From positions 2,378,253 to 2,442,252 of the forward strand of contig NZ_LT599032.1 of NCBI RefSeq assembly GCF_900079725.1: a stretch of DNA of 64,000 bases, written 5' to 3'. The notes beneath the pieces are model-generated. The model saw only the letters and a program-made list of their open reading frames with translations, was not told the origin of the DNA and did no database searches. Shown here in pieces: positions 47,654 to 58,570 of the stretch (the stretch's first letter is position 1; each line of letters starts with the position of its first letter). This DNA comes from an uncultured Dysgonomonas sp. (GTDB lineage: Bacteria; Bacteroidota; Bacteroidia; Bacteroidales; Dysgonomonadaceae). Position numbers and translations under genes: made by a program.

Positions 47654-50600
47654 ATGAAATACAACTCACAATTTAATAGGCTTGTATTGTTTACAATCTT
47701 GATAATTTTATCCAACTCTATATGTGCTTATAGCCTTCGACAATATTCAAGTAAAAATGGGCTTTCTAACAGTGCTATATTATCCATGTATCAGGATAAA
47801 GGCGGCCTCATGTGGTTTGGGTCATGCGAAGGTTTAAATATGTTTGATGGCCTGAATTTTCAGGTCTTCATGCCATCAAATGAAGAGAATATCCTGTCCG
47901 GAAATATAATTGAAAGTATTCTTGAGGCAGAGGATAATACACTCTGGATACAGACAAATTATGGATTAGACCTTTTAGACAAACAGCTTAAGACCGTCCG
48001 CACCTTTAAAGAATTTAAGGGGAAAAACTGGATTATTAAAAGTCCGGCAAACGATATTTTTGTTGTAAAGAACGATAATTACCTTTACTATTATGTAGCA
48101 AAAGAAAATAAATTCCATAATATATATATAGAGGATCTGGTATTTGATGATATTCTGCAAATTGTTATTGATAAAGAAAATACCTTATGGGTTTTCATGA
48201 AAAACGGTAAATATTTCAGTTACAATATCCATTTGGATGAGAATAAAAAGCCAGCTCTTATCAAAAAGAACTATTTTACTAATAAAGAAAATATTATCTG
48301 GTGTTTTTATGAGGATGGTATCTTTTATTTTGTTGACGACACCTATGCGCTATATGAATTTGACCCGATTTCAAAGAATAAATACTATATACATGATATA
48401 TCTGCCGAAGTGGTCAAATATGGAGATATATCATCTATCATCAAGTATAAGGATAACTATTTCATCGGATTTAAAAATAGTGGCTTGATCATACTACAAC
48501 ATATGCCAGAACAAAAAAAACGGTTCTCTATATATGAAGTAGATATAAAATCGGGTATTTTTTGCCTGATGAAAGATAAGTATCAGGATATTGTATGGGT
48601 TGGTACTGATGGACAGGGAGTATATATGTATTATACCGATTCGTATACAATAAAGGCAACACTATTCCGGGATCTTCCCCATAATATAAACAATCCTATA
48701 AGAACATTTTATCTCGATGATAAAAATACATTCTGGATTGGGACAAAAGGGGACGGGATCGTTTCTCTTGGCGGTTATGATATTGCAACAGGCAGCCAGA
48801 CTACATCGACTCATTTTCAGACGATGAATAGTCAGCTAAAAGACAACTCAGTATATACGATAGTTCCCAGCAAAAAAAATATCTTATGGATAGGAAGCGA
48901 AAAAGGAATAAATTATTATTCATATAAAGATAGGAAAATTAAAAATATAGATGTATCCATAGACGGTAAACCGGTACAATATGTTCATTCGATATGCGAA
49001 TTTAACGACTCTACACTTTGGATAGCCACTGTTGGCGAAGGTATTGTTAAAGCACGTCTGGGTGGAGACAACGATAATCCGGTGATAAGCAATGAGAAAT
49101 TGTTTTTGTTTGATGAAGGTAAATTTTCTTCAAACTATTTTTTTACCACATATAAAGAAAACGATTCTATTATCTGGTTTGGAAATAGAGGATATGGCGC
49201 TTACAGGATCAATAATCATACTGAGGATATTGAAACTTTCACCTTCGACCAAAACGATAAAAATCAGACACTAAATGATATTTTTTCAATTCTGAAAAAC
49301 AAGGACGGCTATTGGTTTGGAACAAGTTATGGGCTAGCCCGAATGTATGATGACGGAAAGAAACAAACTTTTGATAAAGATAACGGATTTCCTAACAACG
49401 CTATTCATGGCATCCTGCAAGATTATTATAACAACCTATGGCTAAGTACAAACCAGGGGCTTATCAAATTTAATATTGCACAAAATACATTTCAGACATA
49501 TCGGCAACACAACGAGTTGGAAGTGACAGAATTTAGTGATGGAGCTTACTTTAAACACGAAAACACAGGCGTCTTATTCTTTGGCGGTATCAACGGTTTT
49601 GTAACAATTATCACTAACGAATTACCGAAAGAAGATTACAGCCCACCTATACATTTCAATGGCTTATCTATATTTGGTAAAGAGAATAATATATTCGACT
49701 TTTTAGAAATAGACAATGAGGATAAAACTCTGAAACTAAATTACAGGCAAAATTTCTTTTCAGTATCTTTCACCGCTGTCGATTATATACATGGCAACGA
49801 TTACACTTACTTCTATAAATTGGATGAACTGAGTACTAACTGGATTGATAATGGTACTTCCAATACAGCAGCATTTACTAATATTTCTCCAGGTAAATAT
49901 ACCTTGTTGGTCAAGTACAGAAATAATATAACGGGGAAGGAAAGTCCTGTTCAATCTTTATTTATTGATATACTCCCTCCCTGGTATCTTACCAACATAG
50001 CTTATCTTGTATATGCCATACTTTCCCTTTGCATTCTGTTCATTATTATACGGTTTTCTATCAAATGGTATAAGATGAAAAAGGATAACATTATAGAAAG
50101 GTTAAACCGTCAGCAACGGGAAGAAATTTATGAGTCTAAACTTCGCTTCTTTACCAATATTACTCACGAACTATGTACTCCTTTGACTCTGATATATGGC
50201 CCATGCGAAAAGATACTTTCATACAAAAATACAGATAATTATATAAACAAATATGCAACCCTTATTCAGCACAATGCCGAAAAACTAAATAGTCTAATCT
50301 CCGAACTCATCGAATTCAGGCGATTGGAAACAGGCAATAAGACCCTTGAGATAAGGAATCTTTCTGTATCGGAGTTAACCCGCAATATAACAGATTCGTT
50401 TGTAGAATTAGCTGAAGCTAAAGGCTTCGAATATGAAGTTAGAATTGAAGAAAATGTTTTGTGGAATACCGATCCGAGTTGCTTATCCAAGGTTGTAACC
50501 AATCTTATTTCCAATGCTTTTAAGTATACATCCGATAATGGAAAAATAGGTTTAGAGCTATTTGTCAAAGGGGGAAAACTTAAGATTGTAGTCTCTAATA

Positions 50601-51739
50601 CGGGAAAAGGCATTAAGAAAGAGAATATAGCTAAGATTTTCGACCGCTATACGATTCTTGACAATTTTGAGGAACAGAATAAGAATAAAGTGTCTCCAAG
50701 AAATGGCTTAGGGCTGGCGATTTGCAATAATATGGTAAAACTACTGGAAGGGGAGATAAATGTATCCAGCACTCCTAATGAAGTGACCATATTTACGGTA
50801 ACTCTTCCTGTTTTGGAGGCTACCGACGACTCATCGGTTTACGATAGTACAGAACTGAGCCTTATAGAAGACCCCCTGCCTGTTAATCTGGAAAATTCAC
50901 CCATACCGGATGATTATTTACTGCCTGGATATGATAAAGAAAAGAAAACAATAATGATTGTAGACGATGATCCGTCTATGTTGTGGTTTGTAACGGAGAT
51001 TTTTATAGAACAGTACAATGTAATACCTATAAACGATCCGAAGGAAGTAATACCTTGCCTGAAAAAGAGTCTTCCCGATCTTATAATTTCGGATATAATG
51101 ATGCCTGATATCGACGGCCTGTCACTAACAGCCTCAATAAAGGCGGATAAACTCCAAAACCATATACCGTTAATTCTTTTGTCAGCTAAAAATACCGAGG
51201 AAGACCAGATCAGGGGGATTGATTCAGGAGCTGAAGTGTATATCACCAAGCCATTTAATGTGAAGTATTTGGAAAAAGTGGTTGAGCGGTTAATTAAAAG
51301 AAAAGAAGATTTACAACAGTATTTCTCTTCGGCCTTAAGCTCCTTTGAAGTAAATGAAGGGAAACTTACGCATGAGGAAGACCGGAGATTCATGGAAAAA
51401 GTTTATGAAATAATAGATACAAATATTGCAAATCCAGATCTTTCTGTAGAGACTATCAGTTCCTCGTTGGGATATAGCACCCGCCAATTTTATCGAAGGC
51501 TAAAAGATATTACTCCCAAAAAAACAGTTGATATAATTAAGGAATATAAACTGGATATGGTAAAAAGGTTGTTGATCAGTACAAATTTATCTGTAGATGA
51601 AATTATGGATAGAACAGGCTTTGCTAATAGGGGAAACTTCTTCAAGATATTTTTTCAAAAGTTTGAAACAACTCCTAAAAAATACAGGGAAGAAGTCCGT
51701 AAAAATGCAGGAAAATCTAAAGAAGGCCCGTACTGCTAA
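47654..51739 (+). CDS. Hybrid two-component system sensor/regulator (HTCS2)
   Basis: A 1361-residue one-protein sensor and transcription factor, the likely activator of the mannan-type operon opposite. It has a signal peptide, then two beta-propeller halves of about fourteen repeats (GGLMWFGSCEGLNMFDG is the first), a Y_Y_Y domain before the membrane, and one transmembrane helix at about 769-800. In the kinase core, H838 lies in THELCTPL, where most family members have HE[LI]RTP. The ATP-binding region has NGLGLAICN. A receiver domain has D1147 in IISDIMMPDIDG, followed by an AraC-type DNA-binding domain in the last 110 residues. The gene is divergent from SusC. Confidence 0.95.
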   Translation: MKYNSQFNRLVLFTILIILSNSICAYSLRQYSSKNGLSNSAILSMYQDKGGLMWFGSCEGLNMFDGLNFQVFMPSNEENILSGNIIESILEAEDNTLWIQTNYGLDLLDKQLKTVRTFKEFKGKNWIIKSPANDIFVVKNDNYLYYYVAKENKFHNIYIEDLVFDDILQIVIDKENTLWVFMKNGKYFSYNIHLDENKKPALIKKNYFTNKENIIWCFYEDGIFYFVDDTYALYEFDPISKNKYYIHDISAEVVKYGDISSIIKYKDNYFIGFKNSGLIILQHMPEQKKRFSIYEVDIKSGIFCLMKDKYQDIVWVGTDGQGVYMYYTDSYTIKATLFRDLPHNINNPIRTFYLDDKNTFWIGTKGDGIVSLGGYDIATGSQTTSTHFQTMNSQLKDNSVYTIVPSKKNILWIGSEKGINYYSYKDRKIKNIDVSIDGKPVQYVHSICEFNDSTLWIATVGEGIVKARLGGDNDNPVISNEKLFLFDEGKFSSNYFFTTYKENDSIIWFGNRGYGAYRINNHTEDIETFTFDQNDKNQTLNDIFSILKNKDGYWFGTSYGLARMYDDGKKQTFDKDNGFPNNAIHGILQDYYNNLWLSTNQGLIKFNIAQNTFQTYRQHNELEVTEFSDGAYFKHENTGVLFFGGINGFVTIITNELPKEDYSPPIHFNGLSIFGKENNIFDFLEIDNEDKTLKLNYRQNFFSVSFTAVDYIHGNDYTYFYKLDELSTNWIDNGTSNTAAFTNISPGKYTLLVKYRNNITGKESPVQSLFIDILPPWYLTNIAYLVYAILSLCILFIIIRFSIKWYKMKKDNIIERLNRQQREEIYESKLRFFTNITHELCTPLTLIYGPCEKILSYKNTDNYINKYATLIQHNAEKLNSLISELIEFRRLETGNKTLEIRNLSVSELTRNITDSFVELAEAKGFEYEVRIEENVLWNTDPSCLSKVVTNLISNAFKYTSDNGKIGLELFVKGGKLKIVVSNTGKGIKKENIAKIFDRYTILDNFEEQNKNKVSPRNGLGLAICNNMVKLLEGEINVSSTPNEVTIFTVTLPVLEATDDSSVYDSTELSLIEDPLPVNLENSPIPDDYLLPGYDKEKKTIMIVDDDPSMLWFVTEIFIEQYNVIPINDPKEVIPCLKKSLPDLIISDIMMPDIDGLSLTASIKADKLQNHIPLILLSAKNTEEDQIRGIDSGAEVYITKPFNVKYLEKVVERLIKRKEDLQQYFSSALSSFEVNEGKLTHEEDRRFMEKVYEIIDTNIANPDLSVETISSSLGYSTRQFYRRLKDITPKKTVDIIKEYKLDMVKRLLISTNLSVDEIMDRTGFANRGNFFKIFFQKFETTPKKYREEVRKNAGKSKEGPYC

Positions 51740-51901
51740 TAATAAAAGGATATTTGTTCTGTTGGGAACACTTATCCGAAATAAGCTTCCCTACTGCAGG
51801 TGCATAATTAATTCCCGAATAAACACACTCCACCCCATCTATTTATTTTTCTAATTTACAGCAAATTACATATTGTCTTTCAAAAATAATCGCAAAAATA
51901 C

Positions 51902-51948
51902 TTTGTTGTGACCGAATAGTTACATATATTTGTATCCGAATGGTCACA
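51902..51948 (+). promoter_or_regulatory. tetR promoter overlapped by a double palindromic operator
   Basis: TTTG at 51902-51905 and TATATTTG at 51925-51932 are 19 bp apart, a textbook Bacteroidota promoter. Two copies of TGTGACC-N5-G-N-TACA flank the -7 box in opposite orientation: 51907-51924 forward and 51931-51948 reverse, separated by 6 bp. Each copy is itself a partial palindrome (TGT...ACA). A TetR dimer at each copy would block the promoter, so autorepression is likely. Confidence 0.75.
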
Positions 51949-51965: not shown

Positions 51966-52562
51966 ATGGAAAAAAGAAAAGAACGCGACCGCGATAATAC
52001 AGAAGAACGTCTGATAGGTGCAGTCGGTGAGTTGATAGTAGAAGTCGGATTTGAGAATCTGGGTATCAATCAGGTAGCCAAACAAGCAGGATTTTCGAAG
52101 AATCTGATATATCGTTATTTTGATTCGCTTGACGGATTGATATATGCTTATATGAAAAAGCATGATTTCTGGCTTAATACACCTTTAGAGCAACCGGATA
52201 TTTCGGATATCAAAGGTTATCTGAAAGCCTTTTACCGCAGGGAGATAGCTGAATACAGAGAAAATATTGTTCTCAAAAGATTAAAACGGTGGGAGCTCTC
52301 CTCGGACAAAGATTTCGTAGTGGAAATCCGTGCCCAGCGGGAAAAGAATGGAGTGCAATTTATGGAGATGATGTCCGGATTCGCAAAGATAGACAAAGAG
52401 CAATTACAAGCCGTATCCACCCTTATGGATGCCGGAATATCCTATTTGGCAATTTTTGAAGATAACTGCCGGATGTATAATGGTATTGACATTCAAAGCG
52501 ACAAAGGATGGGAGCAAATAATCGAAGGTATAGATACACTTATAGATATTATAATAAAGTAA
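51966..52562 (+). CDS. TetR-family transcriptional regulator
   Basis: A 198-residue DNA-binding regulator. The N-terminal helix-turn-helix reads NLGINQVAKQAGFSKNLIYRYFDS, split here as helix 2 (INQVAKQAG) and recognition helix (SKNLIYRYF). The C-terminal part is the ligand-binding dimerisation domain and contains no recognised family signature. It starts 18 nt after a palindromic operator and is followed 6 nt later by a DUF2271-like lipoprotein gene, so both are co-transcribed. The same operator sequence recurs before apbE and before the second lipoprotein, which suggests the regulator controls the whole flavin module. The effector is unknown. Confidence 0.9.
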   Translation: MEKRKERDRDNTEERLIGAVGELIVEVGFENLGINQVAKQAGFSKNLIYRYFDSLDGLIYAYMKKHDFWLNTPLEQPDISDIKGYLKAFYRREIAEYRENIVLKRLKRWELSSDKDFVVEIRAQREKNGVQFMEMMSGFAKIDKEQLQAVSTLMDAGISYLAIFEDNCRMYNGIDIQSDKGWEQIIEGIDTLIDIIIK

Positions 52563-52568
52563 CCAATA

Positions 52569-53297
52569 ATGAAAAAAGTAGTTTTAAACATGGTTTTAGC
52601 AGCGACAGTATTGAGTTGTAGCGGACAAAGTCCTGCTCCCTCCCAATTCGAAACCGGCAATATACAGGTTCGTGTGGAAGAAGGGAAAAACTGGTTACAT
52701 GATTTCCCTATATTCTTTTTTATCAAAAAGAAGAACGCGCCGCAGATTGCTATCTGGACAGAAGATACGAAAGGTAATTTTATCTCGACCATCTATGTCA
52801 GTGAAAAACTTGCCAAACAGACGTGGATAGGTGCCAGAGGAAACAGACGGAAAGAATCCCTCCCTTGTTGGAGTCATGCACAGGGGGAACAATATTCGGA
52901 CGGTTTATATCTTCCTACTAAAGAAGAGCCACTTACCGATGCGGTAACAGGAGCGACACCGAAAGGCAGTTTTTCGGCTAACCTGCAAATGGATGAAACA
53001 GTAAAGCACTTCATTGTTAAATGCGAGTTTAACCACTCTGTCGATTTCAACGAATACTATCCTAAGGATGCCAAAGAGGGCGACAGCAATTATTCCGGCG
53101 GGAAATTAGGAAGCGGACAGCCTGCTGTAGTTTACAGCATCGAAGTCGATATGACTAACGGACAAAAGGAATTTACCGGGAAATTAATTGGGCATAGCAG
53201 CCCCGATGGTTCAGACGGAAAAGTTTATCCCGATACTTCAAAACTGACTACAGCCCTTGATATTGTGAAAGGGATTACGGTTTCAGTCAAGGAATAG
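52569..53297 (+). CDS. DUF2271-like lipoprotein with ApbE flavinylation motif (copy 1)
   Basis: A 242-residue lipoprotein, acylated at C17 (VLSC). The core PQIAIWTEDTKGNFISTI resembles the start of DUF2271 periplasmic proteins. It is followed by the arginine- and serine-rich GNRRKESLP and the motif DAVTGAT at residues 124-130. D-x-x-S/T-G-A-T is the consensus where ApbE attaches FMN to the threonine, here T130. The C-terminal part ends in GHSSPDGSDG. It lies directly after tetR and is about half identical by eye to the second copy at 54385. It is probably an extracytoplasmic flavoprotein. Its electron partners are unknown. Confidence 0.75.
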   Translation: MKKVVLNMVLAATVLSCSGQSPAPSQFETGNIQVRVEEGKNWLHDFPIFFFIKKKNAPQIAIWTEDTKGNFISTIYVSEKLAKQTWIGARGNRRKESLPCWSHAQGEQYSDGLYLPTKEEPLTDAVTGATPKGSFSANLQMDETVKHFIVKCEFNHSVDFNEYYPKDAKEGDSNYSGGKLGSGQPAVVYSIEVDMTNGQKEFTGKLIGHSSPDGSDGKVYPDTSKLTTALDIVKGITVSVKE

Positions 53298-53322
53298 GCA
53301 GCATCTATTTTTTTAATCCAAA

Positions 53323-53340
53323 TGTGACCGATTGGATACA
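53323..53340 (+). promoter_or_regulatory. Operator copy upstream of apbE
   Basis: TGTGACCGATTGGATACA matches TGTGACC-N5-G-N-TACA, shared with the tetR promoter. The TACATTTA overlapping its end is one base off a -7 box. The spacing to the apbE ATG is 18 nt. A TTTTTTTAATCCAAA stretch precedes it, almost the same as before the fourth copy. Confidence 0.7.
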
Positions 53341-53358
53341 TTTATAAAACAAACGATC

Positions 53359-54324
53359 ATGTTTCCATTTATATTATTCGGAGAGATAGGGCAGGAAAAG
53401 AAATGTCCATATCATGTACTGTCAGGGGAAAGGCATACTTATTACAGGATAACCTATAGCTATCCTTACGATTTAAACGAAGACATACTATTCATTTATG
53501 ATGTCTTTTACGAATCGCTTAACCCGTTCGATCGACAATCGACGGTATCAAAAGTGAATAACAACGAACCGGTTATTCTGGATAGTATGTTTATCGAAGC
53601 CTTCAATCACTCAATAAGTCTTGCCCAAAAGACGAAAGGTGTATTCGATCCCACCATTGCACCGCTCATAAACCATTGGGGTTTTGGTTTTGAAGCATCA
53701 AAAGATAAAGAGATTGACAGTATAAAAGAGTATGTCGGATATGAGAAAATAAGCATTGAAAACGAACGGGTAGTGAAATCAGATCCCCGTGTACAGCTTA
53801 ATTTCTCGGCGATGGGAGACGGTTTCTCCTGTGAATTGATAGCACGTTATCTCGACAGAAAAGGAGTGGAAAACTATATGGTAGATATAGGCGGGGAAAT
53901 AATTACCAAAGGAAAGAATAGAACCGGCTCCGATTGGTCTGTCGGCATCCTCAAGCCTCCCGTAGACTTAGGGCAGGAAGCATCCCGATTTGAAGCGATA
54001 GTCCGGCTCAATGGCAGGATTTGTCTTGCCACTTCGGGAAACTATAACAACTACCGAACGAAAAATGGCAAAAAGTACGGACATACTATTAATCCATTGA
54101 CGGGCACACCTGTGGACAATGATATTCTCAGTGCAACGGTTATCGCTTCCGATTGTGTTACGGCAGATGCTTACGCTACTGCTATTATGTCTGTCGAAGA
54201 TGATAAACTAGATGACCTGTTAAAAACAGAACCGTCACTGGATTATTATCTTATCTGCAAGGAAAAATCCCAATCCGATAACTACAGTATAAAACAATCC
54301 ACAGGGATGCGTAAATACCTCTGA
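53359..54324 (+). CDS. apbE: FAD:protein FMN transferase, no visible signal peptide
   Basis: ApbE transfers FMN from FAD to a threonine of target proteins outside the cytoplasm, with magnesium. Family motifs: NPFDRQSTVSKVNN (substrate side), GVFDPTIAPL, LNFSAMGDGF, MVDIGGEI, TSGNYNNYRTKNGKKYGHTI and SDCVTADAYATAIM. The last carries the metal-binding aspartate. I chose the ATG at 53359, giving 321 residues; a TTG at 53332 would add nine. The protein starts MFPFILFGEIGQEKK, which is not a clear export signal, whereas most ApbE proteins are exported. The flanking DUF2271-like lipoproteins carry its target motif. The gene has its own operator copy. Confidence 0.92.
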   Translation: MFPFILFGEIGQEKKCPYHVLSGERHTYYRITYSYPYDLNEDILFIYDVFYESLNPFDRQSTVSKVNNNEPVILDSMFIEAFNHSISLAQKTKGVFDPTIAPLINHWGFGFEASKDKEIDSIKEYVGYEKISIENERVVKSDPRVQLNFSAMGDGFSCELIARYLDRKGVENYMVDIGGEIITKGKNRTGSDWSVGILKPPVDLGQEASRFEAIVRLNGRICLATSGNYNNYRTKNGKKYGHTINPLTGTPVDNDILSATVIASDCVTADAYATAIMSVEDDKLDDLLKTEPSLDYYLICKEKSQSDNYSIKQSTGMRKYL

Positions 54325-54341
54325 TATTTTTTTACCCAAAT

Positions 54342-54359
54342 TGTGACCACCGGGCTACA
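54342..54359 (+). promoter_or_regulatory. Operator copy upstream of the second DUF2271-like gene
   Basis: TGTGACCACCGGGCTACA matches TGTGACC-N5-G-N-TACA. It is preceded by TTTTTTTACCCAAA, as at the apbE site. The lipoprotein ATG is 25 nt downstream. Confidence 0.7.
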
Positions 54360-54384
54360 TAATTAATAACATAAAAACAAAGAA

Positions 54385-55113
54385 ATGATGAAAACAGAAA
54401 TTTTAGCAGCATTAGGCATTACGGCAGTCGGAATGCTTACTTCGTGTGATAAAGACCTGGTAGATTACCGCCAGGGCGATATCAAAGTGTATGTAAAAGA
54501 GGGGAAGGAGTACCTGCATGACTTTCCGGGACTTCTGGGGATTAACAAGAAAAATCCACCACAGATAGCCATGTGGATAGAAGACCTGAGCGGCAACTAC
54601 ATCAGTACTATTTATGTGAGCCATAAGATAGCTACTGAGTCGTGGCAGGGAAACAGTGGCAACCGGAGAAAAGAATCGCTTCCTGTATGGTGCCATTCGC
54701 GGGGCATACAATATCCTGATGGGTTATATCTGCCGACAAAAGGTGAACCGATGGTCGACGGCATTTCAGGAGCAACCCCTCACGGCAATTTCGATGTGAA
54801 AATGACTCCGGTAGGAAACTTAAAGCAGTTTGTTGTTAAGGTAGAATTAAACCATTCAACAGACTGGAACGACTATTACCCAAAAGGAGCAAAGGAAGGT
54901 GATTCCAACTGGACGGGTGGCAAAGATGGTAGCGGACAGCCTGCGGTTGTATATGCGGCAACCATCAACCTTGATTCGGATAAAAAGCAATATACCGCAA
55001 CCCTGATTGGACACAGCAGCCCTGACGGGTCAAACGGTGAACTTTATACCGATTTGTCTTCCCTGACATCGGCTTTGGAAATAGTAAAAGAAATAACAAT
55101 AAACATTGAGTAA
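54385..55113 (+). CDS. DUF2271-like lipoprotein with ApbE flavinylation motif (copy 2)
   Basis: A 242-residue lipoprotein acylated at C21 (LTSC). It aligns with copy 1 over its whole length: HDFPGL, PPQIAMWIEDLSGNYISTI, GNRRKESLP, LYLPTKGEP, and the target motif DGISGAT at residues 125-131, with T131 as the predicted FMN site. The C-terminal NHSTDWNDYYPKGAKEGDSN and GHSSPDGSNG match the other copy. The pair looks like a duplication around apbE. An outer-membrane barrel gene follows after one base, so translation is coupled. An extracytoplasmic redox role is inferred from the motif and neighbour. Confidence 0.75.
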   Translation: MMKTEILAALGITAVGMLTSCDKDLVDYRQGDIKVYVKEGKEYLHDFPGLLGINKKNPPQIAMWIEDLSGNYISTIYVSHKIATESWQGNSGNRRKESLPVWCHSRGIQYPDGLYLPTKGEPMVDGISGATPHGNFDVKMTPVGNLKQFVVKVELNHSTDWNDYYPKGAKEGDSNWTGGKDGSGQPAVVYAATINLDSDKKQYTATLIGHSSPDGSNGELYTDLSSLTSALEIVKEITINIE

Positions 55114-55114
55114 A

Positions 55115-55648
55115 ATGAAGAATTTAATTTTAATTGCGCTTTTGAGCTTATCGGTCATAACGGCTAAAGCACAAACAAAGGAAAAAGAATGTAAGATATC
55201 ATTCGCCACGACAATCGGAACAGGATTGTCTATGAGCACACCGTCAAAGACACCGTTTACATGGCAGGTACTGGGCTATTATAACCTGACTGACAGATGG
55301 GCTGTAGGAGCCGGAACAGGGTTGTCTTTCTATGAGAAAACGCTTATCCCGGTATTCGGTGATGTGAAATTTCAAATCGGCAGGACACGTAAATTCACTC
55401 CTTATGCAGAACTGGCAATGGGGTACTCTTTCGCTCCAGCCAACGACGCTAACGGAGGATATTTTGCAAACCCTTCTATCGGTATTCAGTACCCGTTAAA
55501 GAATAGAATGAGGCTGCAATTTGCCGTTGGCTATGAATGGCAGGATTTGAAACGACTGAAGAAACAAACCGACAACTACTTTCATAAAGAATTTGAAGAA
55601 AAGTTGTGGCATCAGGCGATCTCATTTAAGGTGGGTTTAACTTTCTAA
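55115..55648 (+). CDS. Small outer-membrane beta-barrel protein
   Basis: A 177-residue protein with a Sec signal ending at TAKAQ, followed by alternating aromatic and polar strands typical of eight-stranded outer-membrane barrels (FTWQVLGYYNL, AELAMGYSF, LQFAVGYEWQ). The last strand ends in FKVGLTF, the terminal-phenylalanine signature for Bam insertion. I chose the ATG at 55115, one base after the stop of the second DUF2271-like gene. A TTG upstream overlaps that gene. It is probably the last member of the flavin module. Its function is unknown, with a structural or anchoring role possible. Confidence 0.75.
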   Translation: MKNLILIALLSLSVITAKAQTKEKECKISFATTIGTGLSMSTPSKTPFTWQVLGYYNLTDRWAVGAGTGLSFYEKTLIPVFGDVKFQIGRTRKFTPYAELAMGYSFAPANDANGGYFANPSIGIQYPLKNRMRLQFAVGYEWQDLKRLKKQTDNYFHKEFEEKLWHQAISFKVGLTF

Positions 55649-55813
55649 AGATTCTACGAGTAAGGATAGAGTAACACATGGAAAAGCAGGTAAAAAATAT
55701 CTCCCCGTTGCGAACAGCAGGGAGATTCCACCCTTAGAGATCAGAATGTCCTTTTTGTACATAGAGAAAGTAGGATAAAGCCCATATTTTTGCAGCCATT
55801 ATTAGAGAATTAA

Positions 55814-56608
55814 ATGAAAGAATACAAAGTCATATTACCAAGAAAAGAGCTTATGCCATTCATTAGCTACTATTGGATATTTGAAGAAGATGGTATAAAC
55901 AACTATACGGAAATAGTTATTCCTATCGGTTGTATGCAACTCGTTTTCCATATGGGAACGCCGCCATTTTCTACATTGACAAATGATTACCAGCCTATCA
56001 CATTTGTAGAAGGGCATATGGCTTCTCATTCTAATTTGACATACCATAATCATTGCAAGCAGGTCGTAGTTGTTTTTACACCTCAAGGCTCACATGCCTT
56101 TTTCAATATTCCTATGCTTGAGTTTTACAATAGATATGTATCTGTTGAAGACCTAAATGATAAATCACAGGTAGAGCTGCGTGATAAAATATTGGATATG
56201 CAGGATAAATGTTCTGCTATTTCAATGATTGAAGATTTTTTTATGAATAAAATTCAAACGAATTACAACTTCAATCGGATTTGTTTTGCTGTTAATGAAT
56301 TAGAAAAGGTTAATCCTGTAAGTATAAAGGAACTTTCAAAAAAAAGCTGTCTAAGTTATAAGCAATTCAAGAGAATATTCTATAATCACGTTGGCATTAA
56401 TCCCAAAGAATTTGCGCGAATAATCCGCTTTCAGCGATCAATGAATTATATGCAAACAAATAAAAATATAACATCCACCTTATTGGCAGAGAAGGCAGGT
56501 TATTATGATGAATCGCACTTATTGCGAGAATTCAAACTACTCACAGGCTATACGCCTAATGAGTATGCACTTAATTGCCTGACTTATTCCGATTATTTTA
56601 TAGTGTAA
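55814..56608 (+). CDS. AraC-family transcriptional regulator
   Basis: A 264-residue regulator. The N-terminal 130 residues (LPRKELMPFISYYWIFEEDG) resemble the DUF6597-type sensing domain. The C-terminal AraC DNA-binding domain has SIKELSKKSCLSYKQFKRIFY and the second helix-turn-helix around LLAEKAGYYDESHLLREFK. It may control the small membrane proteins and enzymes that follow on the same strand, which it precedes by 54 nt. Target and ligand are unknown. Confidence 0.85.
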   Translation: MKEYKVILPRKELMPFISYYWIFEEDGINNYTEIVIPIGCMQLVFHMGTPPFSTLTNDYQPITFVEGHMASHSNLTYHNHCKQVVVVFTPQGSHAFFNIPMLEFYNRYVSVEDLNDKSQVELRDKILDMQDKCSAISMIEDFFMNKIQTNYNFNRICFAVNELEKVNPVSIKELSKKSCLSYKQFKRIFYNHVGINPKEFARIIRFQRSMNYMQTNKNITSTLLAEKAGYYDESHLLREFKLLTGYTPNEYALNCLTYSDYFIV

Positions 56609-58087: not shown

Positions 58088-58570
58088 ATGAATAAAACAG
58101 CAATTATCTATACATCAAAGCATGGAACGACTGAGAAAGTAGCCCGATTGGTTGCCCAAAAAAGTGAAGGTAAAATTGCTCTGATGTCATTGGAACAAAA
58201 TAGTAATAATGATATCGACACCTTCGATATCATTATACTGGGAACGCCTATTTATGCAGGAACACCCCGAAAAGCGATGACTAATTTTTGCAAAATGAAT
58301 CAAGAGAAGCTATTAGAAAAAACAATCGGGCTTTTTATTTGTGGAATGGAACCCGGCTTAGATATCCGGAATAAACAAATAATAAACGCTTATTCTGAAC
58401 CATTACGTCAACATGCCAGAACAGCCACATTTTTAGGCGGTGAATTCTTATTTGATGAAATGAATTTCTTTGAAAGACTTATTGTCAAAAAGATATCAAA
58501 AGCAACAAGTTCCATTTCTTCAATAGAATATAGCGCCATTGAGAAGTTTGCAAAAGAAATTAAAATATGA
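58088..58570 (+). CDS. Flavodoxin-domain protein (HemG-like)
   Basis: A 160-residue flavodoxin-fold protein. The FMN phosphate loop is TSKHGTTEKVA near the N-terminus. DIIILGTPIYAGTPRKAM follows, as in flavodoxins and in menaquinone-dependent protoporphyrinogen oxidase HemG. The C-terminal part (GGEFLFDEMNFFERLIVKKI) matches the HemG type more than electron-carrier flavodoxins. A role as a quinone-linked oxidase is possible. It is not part of a heme operon here. Confidence 0.75.
   Translation: MNKTAIIYTSKHGTTEKVARLVAQKSEGKIALMSLEQNSNNDIDTFDIIILGTPIYAGTPRKAMTNFCKMNQEKLLEKTIGLFICGMEPGLDIRNKQIINAYSEPLRQHARTATFLGGEFLFDEMNFFERLIVKKISKATSSISSIEYSAIEKFAKEIKI

Follow-up and report, generated by a model that had tools for sequence, protein, structure and literature searches.

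A small mobile operon of Dysgonomonas encoding two DUF2271-related lipoproteins and an ApbE-family flavin transferase, with a likely role in flavin-dependent redox chemistry at the outer membrane

Proteins of the DUF2271 family (PF10029) are described targets of ApbE, the FAD:protein FMN transferase. The flavinylation of a DUF2271 protein by ApbE at an [S/T]GA[S/T] motif, abolished by a Thr-to-Ala substitution, was published in 2021 (PMC8238504), and an immunoglobulin-like beta-sandwich fold has been given for DUF2271 (PMC7190382). In the present study, we analyzed a stretch of 64,000 nucleotides (the window; contig NZ_LT599032.1, positions 2,378,253 to 2,442,252) from an uncultured Dysgonomonas sp., the genome of which comprises one contig of 5.2 Mb. 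The window contains an operon (51966–55648) for a TetR-family regulator, two lipoproteins (LP1 and LP2), an ApbE-family protein, and a small outer-membrane barrel protein. This locus is probably a compact mobile operon that controls its own expression and serves a flavin-dependent redox reaction at the outer membrane. Since the flavinylation of DUF2271 has already been published, only the arrangement can be new. The cassette appears to be undescribed; no description of the operon was found in the open-access literature consulted on DUF2271, ApbE flavinylation, TetR, Dysgonomonas, and Bacteroides.

The five genes lie on a common strand (+) with small intergenic gaps. The initial annotation assigned a D-x-x-[ST]-G-A-T motif to both lipoproteins, and each motif was confirmed in an open reading frame (ORF) of 242 aa. 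LP1 (52569–53297) contains DAVTGAT at residues 124–130 (52938–52958), with T130 as the predicted FMN site, and LP2 (54385–55113) contains DGISGAT at residues 125–131 (54757–54777), with T131 as the predicted site. The claim that the lipoproteins are duplicates flanking an apbE gene was also borne out: LP1 and LP2 are 54% identical over 237 aligned positions, and the gene between them encodes an ApbE-family protein (PF02424, 232.6 bits, E 7.8e-69). Since they are paralogous, the presence of the motif in both does not represent two independent hits. Random shuffling of the two proteins (20,000 trials) produced a motif of this type 12 and 17 times, and D..[ST]GA[ST] was found in only 2 of the 83 stop-to-stop frames of at least 100 residues in the window, namely, LP1 and LP2. 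The motif is thus not attributable to chance. D125, G129, A130, T131, and P132 (LP2 numbering) were invariant in 50/50 aligned relatives, as were W64, W87, R95, P100, W102, S183, Q185, P186, and A187. The 50 loci that have no TonB receptor, several of which are close kin of one another, contain 60 lipoprotein ORFs, and the D...GA[TS] pattern was present in 59 of these; the exception (L099) is half of a stop-broken gene. A flavin is very probably attached covalently to LP1 and LP2 by the ApbE of the operon.

Variants of the motif were noted among the relatives. Three lipoproteins (L006:9770-10528, L035:7929-8669, and L037:4327-5097) carry two DxxxGAT motifs 13–18 residues apart and may perhaps be doubly flavinylated. 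Seven of 16 distant relatives (L074, L077, L082, L083, L084, L085, and L089) have GPT instead of GAT, in the form D-[A]-x-[ST]-G-P-T-P, and three of these GPT loci (L103, L106, and L109, which correspond to L074, L077, and L082) adjoin a TonB receptor.

The N-termini of LP1 (MKKVVLNMVLAATVLSC) and LP2 (MMKTEILAALGITAVGMLTSC), read by eye, begin with charged residues followed by a hydrophobic segment and a Cys, which suggests that both are outer-membrane lipoproteins. The surface lipoprotein signal of Bacteroidota, the lipoprotein export signal (LES), is C-X-K-(D/E)2 after the lipid Cys (PMC5080379). LP2 has C-D-K-D-L, with Lys at +3, a single acid at +4, and no acid at +5, which is a partial match. 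Among LP2-type and single-type proteins (37 rows, counted by eye), Lys was present at +3 in 29, Asp/Glu at +4 in 33, and Asp/Glu at +5 in 1. The LP2-type trend, C-x-K-[DE]-L, is near the LES consensus, but not identical to it. LP1 (C-SGQS) and the LP1-type proteins did not fit C-x-K-(D/E)2, and the B. fragilis form of the LES, SDDDD, fitted neither LP1 nor LP2. The initial annotation proposed a surface or periplasmic location; the lipoprotein signals are supported by the sequence, and for surface exposure there is only a partial signal match, in LP2 alone. An AlphaFold2 model of LP2 was a beta-rich domain (pLDDT 84.2, pTM 0.82). A second look at this model with VIA-align gave a Z of 6.7 at most, and the best rows included many C2-type domains. 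A PDB sequence search with LP2 returned a single match at E 0.37.

The lipoproteins are a divergent, DUF2271-related branch rather than formal members of the family. LP1 and LP2 scored 17.6 and 20.2 bits against PF10029, the cut-off of which is 27.3; this was the only Pfam match among those listed for either protein at E<=10. The label "DUF2271-like" in the initial annotation is, therefore, fair, but plain "DUF2271" would be too strong under the Pfam rule. The host genome had no PF10029 match at E<=0.001. Forty-eight of the 50 relatives matched PF10029 at E<=1 (best 1.3e-6), and a PF10029 search of 149 Bacteroidales genomes placed two loci of the branch, G106:C29 and G189:C41, above the cut-off at 28.7 and 30.3 bits, respectively. 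A further protein found via the Pfam model (L166) scored 68.8 bits to PF10029 and matched the lipoprotein profile in a 13-sequence search (E 1.9e-9), with the [ST]GAT motifs in register in the alignment. The assignment to a DUF2271-related branch is based on these sub-cut-off scores, the two members that passed, and the bridging protein. Profile comparisons with the single canonical DUF2271 protein of L165 gave a probability of 0.6% (E 0.099), and the motif was nevertheless aligned. In the 20 DUF2271 loci checked, a motif-bearing central frame was found in only 12. At E<=0.001, a profile of the branch matched 120/393 Bacteroidales genomes, of which 108 also passed the stricter threshold of E<=1e-10; in a phylum-wide sample, 4/395 genomes matched at E<=1e-10, two of which were Bacteroidales. 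Since family calling in the published survey was Pfam-based (PMC8238504), the window copies are below the cut-off, and only two loci passed, much of the branch was probably missed by that survey. If the motif works as predicted, a large uncounted set of outer-membrane flavoproteins is present in Bacteroidales, and the present cassette would be a compact, inducible, and transferable version of the branch with a directly testable operator.

The apbE gene (53359–54324) encodes 321 aa from the ATG at 53359 and 330 aa from a TTG at 53332. The best match of its product to solved ApbE structures had an E of 4.2e-44. ADAYAT and GHTINP, in which we take D and T of the former and H of the latter to be the active-site residues of the flavin transferase, were aligned with solved and Bacteroidales ApbEs, and the protein appears to be intact by this alignment. 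A start at MFPF is possible in 8/8 loci carrying a local apbE. Cys was found at residue 12 in six of these eight ApbEs, resembling a shortened lipobox, and longer in-frame starts with Lys are available in the window (TTG), L003, L004, L007, and L008. The operon ApbE groups with signal-bearing homologs from Parabacteroides, from a Tannerella MAG (metagenome-assembled genome), and from the family to which the window belongs; a full lipoprotein signal is present in L141, its closest relative among those found.

The N-termini of ApbE, as read by eye, differed between this genus and others. The best-scoring ApbE of the genus (G000:C1:2299010-2299840, L110–L116) was without a signal peptide in 7 of the 8 genus genomes read, whereas a charged start and hydrophobic stretch were present in 21/21 ApbEs from outside the genus; all N-termini of ApbE were read by eye, and G010 yielded no usable frame. 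Of the genus genomes searched, 0/6 had an FMN_bind protein vs. 2/2 and 9/9 genomes outside the genus in two sets, and the two misses of the second set were again genus genomes. With LP1 and apbE, the cassette would carry a flavinylating enzyme of its own, a feature of potential relevance in hosts such as this genus in which no FMN_bind-type substrate was found. Two simpler expectations were rejected. The presence of a lipoprotein did not predict that of ApbE, which was found in 26/26 genomes with a lipoprotein and 12/12 without. A local apbE was not restricted to genomes missing another extracytosolic ApbE: among the seven genomes with a local apbE (that of the window and G488–G493), four (G488–G491) have FMN_bind and a signal-bearing ApbE, and just the three of the window's genus conform to this expectation.

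The initial annotation gave the lipoproteins their own repressor, and this was supported by the sequence. The first gene of the operon (51966–52562) encodes a 198-aa TetR-family protein, presumably the autorepressor (PF00440, TetR_N, 38 bits, cut-off 24). A palindrome, TGTnnC-N6-GnnACA, precedes tetR and/or the lipoprotein gene in 31/31 TetR-type loci. The window has four sites (no strand assigned): two before tetR identified by a pattern scan (51907–51924, TGTGACCGAATAGTTACA; 51931–51948, TGTATCCGAATGGTCACA), one 5' of apbE that overlaps the alternative TTG start at 53332 (53323–53340, TGTGACCGATTGGATACA), and one 5' of LP2 (54342–54359, TGTGACCACCGGGCTACA). The palindrome was initially spotted by eye in the window, the four sites of which, therefore, add no independent evidence. 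In the 31 TetR-type loci, the palindrome occurred 73 times in 13,873 bp of promoter regions, which were chosen stretches surrounding the tetR and lipoprotein gene starts, vs. 4 times in 469,004 bp outside these regions. It occurred 7 times in 437,977 bp of 35 TetR-less control loci, in which three places were doubled (L050/L056, L051/L057, and L054/L058). The count excluded duplicates and short loci (L001, L002, L012, L013, L041–L048, L059–L089, and L110–L165), and L026, the lipoprotein frame of which was not picked, is in neither this count nor that of the neighborhoods. Each TetR locus has one to four operator-like sites, and a site pair 24 bp apart (start to start) before tetR is present in 17 of the 31 TetR-type loci, as it is in the window. 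The TetR proteins diverge to 32% identity with the nearer of two references (L094), and, thus, the conservation of the palindrome does not merely reflect recent copying. We infer that TetR binds these palindromes and represses the operon.

The last gene (55115–55648) encodes a 177-aa protein with an N-terminal signal, an AlphaFold2 model of which (pLDDT 85.9) is an 8-strand outer-membrane barrel with an OmpW/NspA-like fold. Foldseek matched the model to OmpW (8qxp; E 1.8e-5, TM 0.61), and no sequence family exceeded its cut-off (PF13505, 23.8 vs. 28.7 bits). The lipoprotein and barrel genes form the conserved core and were adjacent in 45 of the 50 closer-branch loci. In the remaining five, another gene (L027 and L102), a contig edge (L037), or an RteC gene (L094) followed, or the lipoprotein gene was broken (L099). 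The regulator was TetR in 31 of these loci, LytTR on the opposite strand in seven, and a Crp-like protein just upstream in seven (L036 and L095–L100), with the others unassigned. A TonB-dependent receptor was beside the lipoprotein in 10/10 weaker-scoring loci with a neighborhood vs. 0/50 barrel-branch loci. Seven of the 16 neighborhoods of L074–L089 were covered (as L103–L109); all were TonB-linked, and three had GPT. The neighborhood count excluded L001, L002, L012, L013, L042, L047, L048, and L050–L055, and the 50 loci include near-identical kin, such as L031/L034, L036/L095, and L020/L023.

ApbE and a second lipoprotein were encoded in 8 of the 50 loci. In a phylogenetic tree, the LP1 copies formed one clade (support 100/100), and the LP2 copies and L092 formed another (91/100), except for LP2 of L006, which was on a long branch and not placed. 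The single lipoproteins of other loci were closer to LP2 than to LP1, save five of the six most distant, and LP2 retains the operator-like site and the barrel of single-copy loci. LP2 is most likely the counterpart of the single lipoprotein found elsewhere, with LP2, the barrel, and the regulator as the ancestral core, and, given the LP1 clade, the LP2-like single copies, and the operator-like site and barrel of LP2, a single addition of LP1 and apbE between tetR and LP2 is most likely. At the position of LP1 and apbE, a nitroreductase-family protein was encoded between tetR and the lipoprotein gene in 7 of the 31 TetR-type loci (L014, L015, L020, L023, L030, L091, and L092); PF00881 was called by Pfam for L014, L015, L030, and L092, and the others were called by BLAST. 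A nitroreductase gene was located just downstream in L040. The TetR of G433 (L092) is 79% identical to that of the window. L022 (8001–8585) has no apbE and a truncated LP1 of 194 aa, with LP2 and the barrel whole.

The operon block is mobile and has spread horizontally, as indicated by the 95.3% DNA identity over 3.7 kb between Dysgonomonas sp. 25 (L007) and Bacteroides sp. 519 (L008), and by RteC and integrase genes adjoining the operon in relatives. The stretch shared by the two isolates was the only match of more than 400 bp and approximately spanned the operon. Two copies (L004 and L008) are present in Bacteroides sp. 519. RteC is a regulator of conjugative transposons. Its gene directly follows the barrel gene in L003, L004, L005, and L008 and the lipoprotein gene in L094, and a tyrosine recombinase gene is upstream in L003, L005, and L008; these elements are presumably of the CTnDOT type. 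The longest DNA alignments of the window with nine related loci started at approximately 51844–51883 and ended at 55602–55654, and, thus, the shared block comprises the operon, its operator-like sites, and little else. Just upstream, and outside the shared block, is a gene for a 1361-aa hybrid two-component regulator (47654–51739) with propeller repeats, histidine kinase, receiver, and AraC-type domains. The downstream neighbors in the window are AraC-type, GNAT-like, flavodoxin, and methyltransferase-like genes, including those for an AraC-type regulator with DUF6597 (55814–56608) and a Flavodoxin_5 protein (58088–58570).

We propose the following mechanism. TetR would occupy the palindromes before tetR, apbE, and LP2, silencing the operon until its release by a small ligand. 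LP1 and LP2, judging from their signal peptides, would be exported as outer-membrane lipoproteins, and ApbE would use FAD to transfer FMN to LP1 (T130) and LP2 (T131), as shown elsewhere for DUF2271 proteins. The bound flavins would then accept electrons from a carrier encoded elsewhere and may exchange them, in either direction, with a small molecule passing or docking at the OmpW-like barrel, which is the weakest step. The motif and its conservation, the gene order, the palindromes, and the horizontal spread are direct observations. Flavin attachment, lipoprotein export, and repression are extrapolated from established work. The electron donor, the partner molecule, and the role of the barrel in this mechanism are guesses.

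Several results weigh against a flavin-dependent step of this kind. The operon encodes no electron donor, and no PepSY match was found in or near it; the four PepSY_TM matches of the host genome are all more than 300 kb from 51966–55648, and PepSY was absent in 8 of the 26 lipoprotein-bearing genomes examined. PepSY as an obligatory partner was rejected since it was found in 18/26 lipoprotein-bearing genomes vs. 7/12 others. The description of the locus as a compact, possibly undescribed extracytoplasmic redox system stands with respect to the arrangement, which appears to be new, whereas the flavinylation of DUF2271 by ApbE has been published (PMC8238504) and the donor is not encoded. No apbE was present within 5 kb of the lipoprotein gene in 42 of the 50 loci (26 of these 42 span 5 kb on both sides and 16 are shorter), and ApbE was found in 38/38 genomes with or without the lipoprotein, such that co-occurrence provides no support. 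The motif alanine is not always retained, as indicated by GPT in 7 of the 16 distant relatives (L074–L089), and a Foldseek search with the LP2 model yielded no PDB match at E<=0.001. From the ATG at 53359, the operon ApbE has no conventional export signal by eye, although the longer TTG form is possible. In L005, L006, and L009, a stop is located 1–6 codons upstream of MFPF with no ATG, GTG, or TTG between, which leaves only approximately 17 residues, with no Lys/Arg n-region, ahead of the conserved [YF]H.LSG. If cytosolic, the enzyme must act on the lipoproteins before export or not at all. Either the short N-terminus works, or flavinylation occurs before export, or ApbE serves another protein.

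The N-terminus of ApbE thus raises the idea that its export signal was lost and that it acts on either the nascent lipoproteins or a different cytosolic protein; the lipoproteins would then be flavinylated before export or never in this host. The absence of an n-region before MFPF, the signal-less ApbE of the genus in contrast to those from outside it, and the lack of FMN_bind proteins in the six genus genomes favor this idea; however, the full lipoprotein signal of L141, the retained Cys at residue 12, and the Lys-containing longer starts argue against it, and we regard it as less likely than not. An alternative for which we find it improbable that it is correct is that the D...GATP loop is retained as a fold element of lipoproteins that bind no cofactor. 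The GPT form (D...GPTP) keeps the loop while breaking the published [ST]GA[ST] pattern, and nine other residues are as invariant as the motif, but GA[TS] is retained in nearly all ORFs of the barrel branch (59/60), apbE was acquired into the operon together with the second lipoprotein copy, and this motif is the flavinylation site of homologous DUF2271 proteins (PMC8238504).

Other explanations concern the substrate. In the detoxification or export of a small redox-active compound, such as a quinone, nitro compound, or antibiotic, TetR would sense the compound, the barrel would pass it, and the flavolipoproteins or the nitroreductase-like protein would reduce it. TetR control with one to four operator-like sites, the nitroreductase-family proteins at the LP1 and apbE position, the OmpW-like barrel, and the mobile-element surroundings in relatives are consistent with this function, for which we allow an appreciable, but minor, chance; nitroreductases were present in just 8 of the 50 loci, and the OmpW likeness is at the fold level alone (TM 0.61). 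Slightly more doubtful is a role in iron or metal reduction, in which the flavoproteins would reduce ferric iron for uptake at the outer membrane and TetR would sense a metal chelate or siderophore-like compound; such a function has been proposed for DUF2271/PepSY clusters. DUF2271 genes adjoin iron-responsive TonB receptors in Alteromonas (PMC7190382), and a Caulobacter PepSY/DUF2271/DUF4198 operon was induced in iron-starved mutants, with insertions lowering EDTA fitness (PMC11870441). The distant lipoprotein branch was paired with a TonB-dependent receptor in 10/10 loci, and a Fur-family gene was a few genes away in L056 and L057. However, none of the 50 barrel-branch loci had a TonB receptor next to the lipoprotein, the window operon had no PepSY match nearby, none of the lipoprotein genes had a Fur gene closer than 2.5 kb (Fur boxes were not searched for), and the regulators were TetR, LytTR, or Crp-like. 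A bolder arrangement, which we consider highly improbable, is a heme-free electron bridge with LP1 in the periplasm, LP2 outside, and the barrel joining them, such that two covalent flavins pass electrons across the outer membrane. This sidedness would follow from LP1 being without an export signal after the Cys and from C-D-K-D-L in LP2. If true, the operon would be a transferable and inducible flavin counterpart of porin-cytochrome conduits, and the two-motif lipoproteins (L006, L035, and L037) would shorten the electron hop.

A flavin-dependent redox operon at the outer membrane, the reading we prefer, has parts in common with several known systems. The RteC-bearing, CTnDOT-type conjugative elements resemble the locus in that RteC and a tyrosine recombinase adjoin the operon in relatives; the flanking genes read in the window include neither (transfer genes were not searched for). 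The barrel shares the 8 strands of the small outer-membrane barrels OmpW, NspA, and OprG and its model matches the fold of OmpW 8qxp, but it has only approximately 15% identity and no sequence-family match above the cut-off. The similarity to DUF2271 (PF10029; Meheust et al. 2021, PMC8238504) consists of a sub-threshold match covering the motif, secretion, and apbE alongside. In contrast, the lipoproteins are approximately 240 aa vs. approximately 135 for the Pfam domain, and the branch is paired with a small barrel or, in its distant part, a TonB receptor, with no PepSY partner in the window operon. A standard cluster was found within the same genus in G010 (L165:3880-6862), where a canonical DUF2271 protein (124 bits) is encoded together with a PepSY-flavodoxin protein and an ApbE, the signal peptide of which appears ordinary. 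Both this cluster and the window operon combine an exported [ST]GA[ST] protein with ApbE; the window operon is without the PepSY and flavodoxin domains and adds TetR, the barrel, and a second lipoprotein.

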